46,624 bases of DNA from Candidatus Portnoyibacteriota bacterium. Lineage in GTDB: Bacteria > Patescibacteriota > Minisyncoccia > Portnoybacterales > GWB1-42-6. The number at the start of each line of letters is the position of its first letter. Position 1 is the first letter of the stretch. The DNA lies in the NCBI GenBank assembly GCA_016208745.1, contig JACQXN010000005.1:1-46624 (forward strand), in the 5' to 3' direction. This document shows, piece by piece, positions 5,440 to 7,301 of this stretch. The notes beneath the pieces are model-generated. The model worked only from the letters and a program-made list of their open reading frames with translations, was not told where the DNA came from and did not search any database. A program made the position numbers and the translations under genes.

Positions 5440-5715
5440 TTATAGACCAGTCTTATCATTCTTCAATGCTACGGAATTAAGTAGCCTTTTATACGCAAGT
5501 GCTTTACCGGAACCTGATTTTATATATCGCTCAAAATCTTTGGCCAATTTTTTCGTTTGGAATGCCGCGTAGAATACCAGCGTCCATGGCCTAAACGGTG
5601 CTGTGGCTTTTGAAAACCCGTTATTATGCTCCCCAAGTCTCTTTCTTAAATCTTCCGTGTAGCCGTAATAAAAGTTCTTAGATTTTAAGCTATATAAGAT
5701 GTAAACATAGAACAT
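5440..5715 (-). CDS. GIY-YIG nuclease superfamily protein
   Basis: MFYVYILYSLKSKNFYYGYTEDLRKRLGEHNNG...PFRPWTLVFYAAFQTKKLAKDFERYIKSGSGKAL; start set internal because upstream ORF part overlaps a tRNA. Confidence 0.88.
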   Translation of the reverse strand: MFYVYILYSLKSKNFYYGYTEDLRKRLGEHNNGFSKATAPFRPWTLVFYAAFQTKKLAKDFERYIKSGSGKALAYKRLLNSVALKNDKTGL

Positions 5716-5757
5716 TTTTGTGGGCCAAAGCCATTCCGTAGCCTTGGCGAAGGATGG

Positions 5758-5828
5758 CACGGGATGAGGGAATCGAACCCCCGCCTACTCTTTTGGAGAG
5801 AGTCATACTGCCACTATACTAATCCCGC
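5758..5828 (-). tRNA. tRNA-Trp (CCA anticodon), G73 with CCA tail encoded (5755-5757)
   Basis: GCGGGATTAGTATAGTGGCAGTATGACTCTCTCCAAAAGAGTAGGCGGGGGTTCGATTCCCTCATCCCGTG: acceptor stem, anticodon stem ACTCT/AGAGT, loop CTCCAAA, T-arm GGTTCGATTCC. Confidence 0.88.
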
Positions 5829-6853: not shown

Positions 6854-7031
6854 GTTCACTATCGCTCAAGTTAAAAGTTAAAAATGAAAAGTTCAAATTT
6901 TTCTTTTTTAATTTTAAGATGTCGTTTTTATATTTTTTTGCTAAAGGCGAATCAGCCTCGGGCTGAAATTTTTACTTTTTAATTCCTCTTGAGCCGTTGG
7001 TCCCGCATCTTGCGGGACGACCCGTCTCTTG

Positions 7032-7301
7032 AGCCGTTGTCCGGAATCGAACCGGAGACCTACTCCTTCATTTTGTACCTCTTTTTATATAATACTTATA
7101 AGAGGATTAGACTGTATATTTGGCGTGTCTCAAATGAGATTTAGCCACCCTTGTCAGTCGTTCGTCCGCCTAAGGCGGAACGGTCTTAACCTAGTATAGG
7201 CCTTTAACCGTTATTCGGGATTCGCAATTAAATTTCTCTAATTGTGGGCATAGCCTCTGCGGCTTACCATGGAGTTGCTCTACCGACTGAGCTACAACGG
7301 C
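7032..7301 (-). tRNA. tRNA-Thr (GGT) interrupted by a group I intron; exons 7266-7301 (36 nt) and 7032-7068 (37 nt)
   Basis: Spliced: GCCGTTGTAGCTCAGTCGGTAGAGCAACTCCATGGT|AAGGAGTAGGTCTCCGGTTCGATTCCGGACAACGGCT gives a perfect 73-nt cloverleaf. Confidence 0.95.
7069..7265 (-). ncRNA. Group I intron (197 nt, no ORF) between tRNA positions 36 and 37
   Basis: P1 CAUGGU/GCUAUG with U.G at 5' splice site; P2 CAATTA/TAATTG; P4 ACGGT/ACCGT; P5 CCTA/TAGG; P6 TCCGCC/GGCGGA; P7 GACTG/CAGTC; P8 TGGC/GCCA; P9 CCTCTT/AAGAGG; terminal omega-G. Confidence 0.93.

Follow-up and report, generated by a model that had tools for sequence, protein, structure and literature searches.

How would a bacterium obtain tRNA-Thr(GGU) from a gene that is split within the anticodon loop? 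In the 46,624-nucleotide stretch of DNA analysed here (the window), a tRNA-Thr(GGU) gene on the minus strand at positions 7032-7301 is divided by 197 nt inserted between nucleotides 36 and 37. Comparative sequence analysis points, with a probability that we put at about 93%, to a group I intron, compact and lacking an ORF, that is expected to excise itself from the precursor of tRNA-Thr(GGU).

The interrupted tRNA-Thr(GGU) gene

The gene is missed by plain ARAGORN and by an Rfam scan of the window. When introns are allowed, ARAGORN reports a tRNA-Thr(GGT) interrupted by 197 nt at 36/37, and joining the exons gives a 73-mer that folds as a canonical tRNA-Thr. This agrees with the exons of 36 and 37 nt, joining into a 73-nt tRNA, that an earlier note on this DNA had described. 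The gene consists of the following parts.

7266-7301, minus strand: 5′ exon of tRNA-Thr(GGU), nucleotides 1-36 (36 nt); ARAGORN call and compensatory stem changes across relatives
7266-7268, minus strand: anticodon GGU, inside the 5′ exon
7069-7265, minus strand: group I-type intron, 197 nt; homologues at the identical site and covariation
7069, minus strand: omega G, the final intron base
7032-7068, minus strand: 3′ exon of tRNA-Thr(GGU), nucleotides 37-73 (37 nt); ARAGORN call and covariation in the T-stem and acceptor stem

The earlier note had also stated that the insert carries no homing endonuclease ORF, and no intron reading frame is open beyond 42 codons. It had named a second, intact tRNA-Thr(GGT) elsewhere in the genome as evidence against its reading; none occurs among the 51 tRNA-model matches of the 859-kb, 97.8% complete host genome, in which the Thr isoacceptors are TGT and CGT. 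The neighbouring tRNA-Thr(TGT) gene is present as described, with the correction that a tRNA-Tyr gene sits between it and the tRNA-Thr(GGU) gene.

Distribution and detection of the intron

A DNA search of the host family found the same interrupted gene, split at the same site, in six of nine genomes. The intronless orthologues that the earlier note proposed to look for in related genomes exist in two family members, G001 and G005, where the sequence runs uninterrupted through CATGGT-AAGGAG. Among the family relatives, exons are 88-97% identical and introns 61-82%.

Downstream of the window copy (6986-7039), CAACGGCTCAAGAG is repeated at 6986-6999 and 7026-7039 as partial copies of the tRNA-Thr(GGT) 3′ end, and longer 3′-half copies trail the intronless genes of G005 and G001 (L038 1300-1545; L039 330-465). 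Integration or slippage may have left such copies behind.

A covariance model of the intron core (R1) matched 8 of the order's 23 genomes. In samples from the class and from the phylum (Patescibacteria) it matched 57 of 384 and 18 of 380 genomes, a few of the matches in each sample being weak. All 61 strong matches that were parsed automatically lie in tRNA-Thr(GGU) at 36/37, after U36, and end in G, exactly as the earlier note had placed the window's insert; the parse looked for the terminal G but placed no constraint on the anticodon, stem and acceptor pairings. The parsed introns are 175-257 nt long, and inspection of further strong matches by eye agrees with the automatic parse. A Thr(GGU) host is unusual, as earlier suggested, when set against the named classic tRNA cases, but the intron is common within Patescibacteria.

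For some relatives ARAGORN gives the labels tRNA-Arg, tRNA-His or tRNA-Ala; these reflect shifted splits, and re-parsing returns Thr(GGU) at 36/37. A pattern scan of named genomes yielded at least 45 true matches, with record titles of Patescibacteria lineages or bacterial bins. Among the matches listed, those outside Patescibacteria all scored 15 bits or less with the model and were discarded. The host genome has a second R1 match (contig C18, 19.8 bits), for which Rfam gives no support. The intron tree is poorly resolved. Introns cluster to some extent by host family (11 changes against 17.7 in shuffles), and some host families are split by supported branches.

The earlier note had proposed a search with the Rfam group I model RF00028. 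On the window this gave no match at gathering or permissive thresholds, even when E values as high as 10 were allowed in a search of 396 nt, and the model matched none of the tRNA-Thr(GGU) relatives tried. In the same scans RF00028 does find an intron in the host 23S rRNA gene, as well as tRNA-Asn and tRNA-Asp introns elsewhere in Patescibacteria, so in sequence the tRNA-Thr lineage stands apart from the library model. RF00028 is a tool for detection and sets no structural criterion. It misses the entire lineage while still finding other introns, so the negative result does not refute a group I assignment. Because ordinary tRNA finders drop the gene and RF00028 is blind to the intron, genomes of this kind give the impression of having no tRNA-Thr(GGU). 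The intron is matched in roughly one-seventh of the class genomes sampled, and the standard RNA-family model nevertheless misses the lineage; the 59 introns aligned below provide a model able to find it.

Intron structure and predicted splicing

Covariation was scored on an alignment of 59 full introns (A5). Over the whole structure 94.8% of cells are paired, compared with 79.0% in shuffles, 460 cells are changed on both sides (136 in shuffles) and the covariation score is 0.486 (0.176 in shuffles). Sliding the structure by 1-3 columns leaves at most 43.9% of cells paired and a covariation score of at most 0.106. The elements of the window copy are as follows, in 5′ to 3′ order of the intron.

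7247-7268, minus strand: P1, anticodon GGU (7266-7268) with internal guide GCC (7247-7249); GGU/GCC in 59/59 folds
7261-7264 and 7252-7255, minus strand: variable extension of P1, AGCC with GGCU, within 7247-7268
7223-7246, minus strand: P2 stem-loop; 9 of 10 pairs changed on both sides, loop GNRA in relatives
Within 7231-7236, minus strand: L2 GAAA tetraloop, the loop of P2
7217-7219, minus strand: P3 5′ strand, CCC; compensatory C-G to U-A changes in 3 of 3 pairs
7180-7211, minus strand: P4, ACGGUU (7206-7211) with GACCGU (7180-7185), enclosing P5; invariant
7188-7202, minus strand: P5, with A-rich J4/5; 4 pairs changed on both sides
7165-7179, minus strand: P6 stem-loop; 4 of 4 scored pairs changed on both sides
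7155-7159, minus strand: P7 5′ strand, GACUG; invariant, 59/59
7148-7150, minus strand: P3 3′ strand, GGG, pseudoknotted with P7; covariation
7121-7147, minus strand: P8 stem-loop; 4 pairs changed on both sides, receptor type follows L2 type
7110-7114, minus strand: P7 3′ strand, CAGUC, with J8/7 just before it; invariant, 59/59
7078-7105, minus strand: P9 stem-loop; 4 of 5 scored pairs changed on both sides
7070-7107, minus strand: P9.0, AU (7106-7107) with AU (7070-7071), adjoining omega G; AU:AU to GC:GC double changes

Covariation is strong in P2, P3, P5, P6, P8, P9 and P9.0. P4 and P7 are invariant or nearly so and 100% paired, and for that reason gain no covariation support of their own. 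The helices that had been paired by hand in the single sequence (P2 and P4 to P9) hold up, P2, P5, P6, P8 and P9 by covariation and P4 and P7 by conservation. P3, only weakly placed before, can be assigned to only three Watson-Crick pairs, each of which shows concerted C-G to U-A changes. In P9.0, AU:AU and GC:GC replace each other as a whole, the outer pair being AU in 37 introns and GC in 22. By analogy, P7 would be the guanosine-binding helix.

For P1 the earlier proposal had two parts. The U.G wobble at the 5′ splice site stands: the minimum-energy P1 fold holds GGU/GCC, and with it U36.G, in 59 of 59 introns, the guide GCC is present in every intron and GCCC is invariant. The longer pairing of CAUGGU with GCUAUG is not conserved and was rejected, GCUAUG occurring in one of 59 introns, that of the window itself.

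If L2 contacts P8 as in Azoarcus, the type of L2 loop should track the type of P8 receptor. The P2 loop is a GNRA tetraloop in the relatives. Of the introns with a GAAA loop, 29 of 32 have in P8 an internal loop of the CUAAG..UAUG type, like the 11-nt GAAA receptor, compared with 1 of 27 introns with other loops, counts that are uncorrected for relatedness. In 26 of the 27 introns whose L2 was scored as GUAA, GCAA, GGAA, GCGA, GUGA or other, P8 forms a plain helix; the remaining one is a GAAA loop shifted in the alignment. On the tree each trait (L2, P8) changes 13-14 times, and the only two usable independent pairs on supported branches nearly always agree. The set of 59 introns offers a natural series for the study of L2-P8 tertiary contacts, of intron gain and loss, and of tRNA maturation in very small bacterial genomes.

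In the window copy, P8 has CUAAA..ACG, a degenerate variant of the GAAA tetraloop receptor found in relatives. This variant, the failure of Rfam to recognize the intron and the presence of two other tRNA-Thr isoacceptors would all fit a group I intron that has decayed and no longer splices, left in a dead tRNA gene, ACC and ACU being decoded by a different tRNA-Thr, for instance the UGU isoacceptor. However, all core helices of the window copy are intact and its R1 score, 129.2 bits, is the second best in the order. The exon stems, despite the interruption, show compensatory changes across relatives. The fold is also more stable than that of any of 200 shuffles; the gene (z = -5.0 for the pre-tRNA) and the intron (z = -3.8 on its own) each fold better than every shuffle. 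Because exon stems and intron core are both intact and compensated, we consider a dead gene improbable.

The group I assignment, by contrast, is strongly supported by the covariation across 59 introns, the conserved splice-site features and the intronless alleles, all of them comparisons of DNA sequence. In group I splicing, P1 is docked, a guanosine held in P7 attacks the 5′ site and the exon hydroxyl then attacks after omega G. Applied to this gene, guide GCC would pair with anticodon GGU to form P1 with the U36.G wobble, and a P7-bound guanosine would attack after U36. The freed U36 hydroxyl would in turn attack after omega G, which P9.0 is expected to hold, and U36 would be joined to A37 to give the mature tRNA. 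Removal by a splicing endonuclease and a ligase, as in archaea and eukaryotes, would suit a short insert (197 nt) one nucleotide from the canonical archaeal 37/38 site, but it is very improbable, since a PF01974 search that detected four archaeal controls found no splicing endonuclease in the host genome, and the covarying, pseudoknotted group I-type helices and the U.G and omega G sites would be needless for a bulge-helix-bulge.

Known group I introns and tRNA-adjacent nucleases

The Azoarcus pre-tRNA-Ile(CAU) intron is a compact, ORF-less member of subgroup IC3 in the anticodon loop, whose guide pairs with the anticodon triplet, with a U.G at the 5′ site, and whose GAAA-type L2 can contact a P8 receptor. 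The present intron shares its compactness, absence of an ORF, anticodon-loop site, anticodon-pairing guide, 5′ U.G and GAAA-type L2. It differs in its tRNA-Thr(GGU) host, the guide GCC, a 3-bp P3, P7 of GACUG/CAGUC and the lack of recognition by RF00028. Structures of the Azoarcus intron are cited in PMC3984707.

Group I introns are also described in bacterial tRNA-fMet and tRNA-Ile2 (PMC8450103). Together with those in tRNA-Leu(UAA), in cyanobacteria, Acidovorax and Burkholderia, they resemble the present case in being of the self-splicing type, in lying in the anticodon loop and in hiding the gene from tRNA finders; they sit, however, in other isotypes and other bacterial phyla. The rRNA group I introns of CPR bacteria (PMC11270868) come from the same phylum, and one such intron is present in the host's 23S rRNA gene, but these have an rRNA host, belong to a different lineage and are detectable with RF00028.

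A 2025 preprint by Nakagawa et al. (bioRxiv 10.1101/2025.07.03.662931), as cited in PMC12641178, treats tRNA group I introns of Patescibacteria, that is, introns from the same phylum and the same kind of host gene; to judge from that citation, the kind is already known. Full-text literature searches returned no other description besides this preprint, itself represented by its citation in PMC12641178. It is conceivable, though we think it rather unlikely, that a separate divergent lineage defined by its P3, P7 and guide, fixed at one tRNA-Thr(GGU) site across Patescibacteria and invisible to RF00028, was previously undescribed.

The weak R1 matches (26-41 bits) mostly represent another kind of group I intron that RF00028 can detect. 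Such introns occur in tRNA-Asn(GUU) and tRNA-Asp(GUC) genes of other Patescibacteria (loci L120, L121, L122, L123, L124 and L126); judged by eye, they apparently lie between nucleotides 35 and 36, inside the anticodon, and those of L120 and L126 encode an HNH-like stretch. This kind differs from the one in tRNA-Thr, so tRNA group I introns of at least two lineages exist in Patescibacteria. The host 23S rRNA gene contains several large inserts, one of which has a group I match below the Rfam cut-off.

L001 1501-1672 (G000:C28:20627-20798): group I match in an insert of the 23S rRNA gene; RF00028, 34.4 bits

Small GIY-YIG (PF01541) genes cluster by tRNA genes, in the window at 5440-5760 on the minus strand and elsewhere in the host genome (G000) on contigs C1, C6, C7, C13, C16 and C25. 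Eight of the 14 GIY-YIG genes in this genome lie within 75 nt of a tRNA; random placement predicts 0.28 within 250 nt, and none of 20000 draws was as high. Across the host family, 15 of 30 GIY-YIG genes fetched (L273-L302) are within 130 nt of a tRNA, and the isotypes differ between genomes. The genes look like free-standing homing-type nucleases that use the surroundings of tRNA genes, and the intronless tRNA-Thr(GGT) of G001 has one at a distance of 71 nt.
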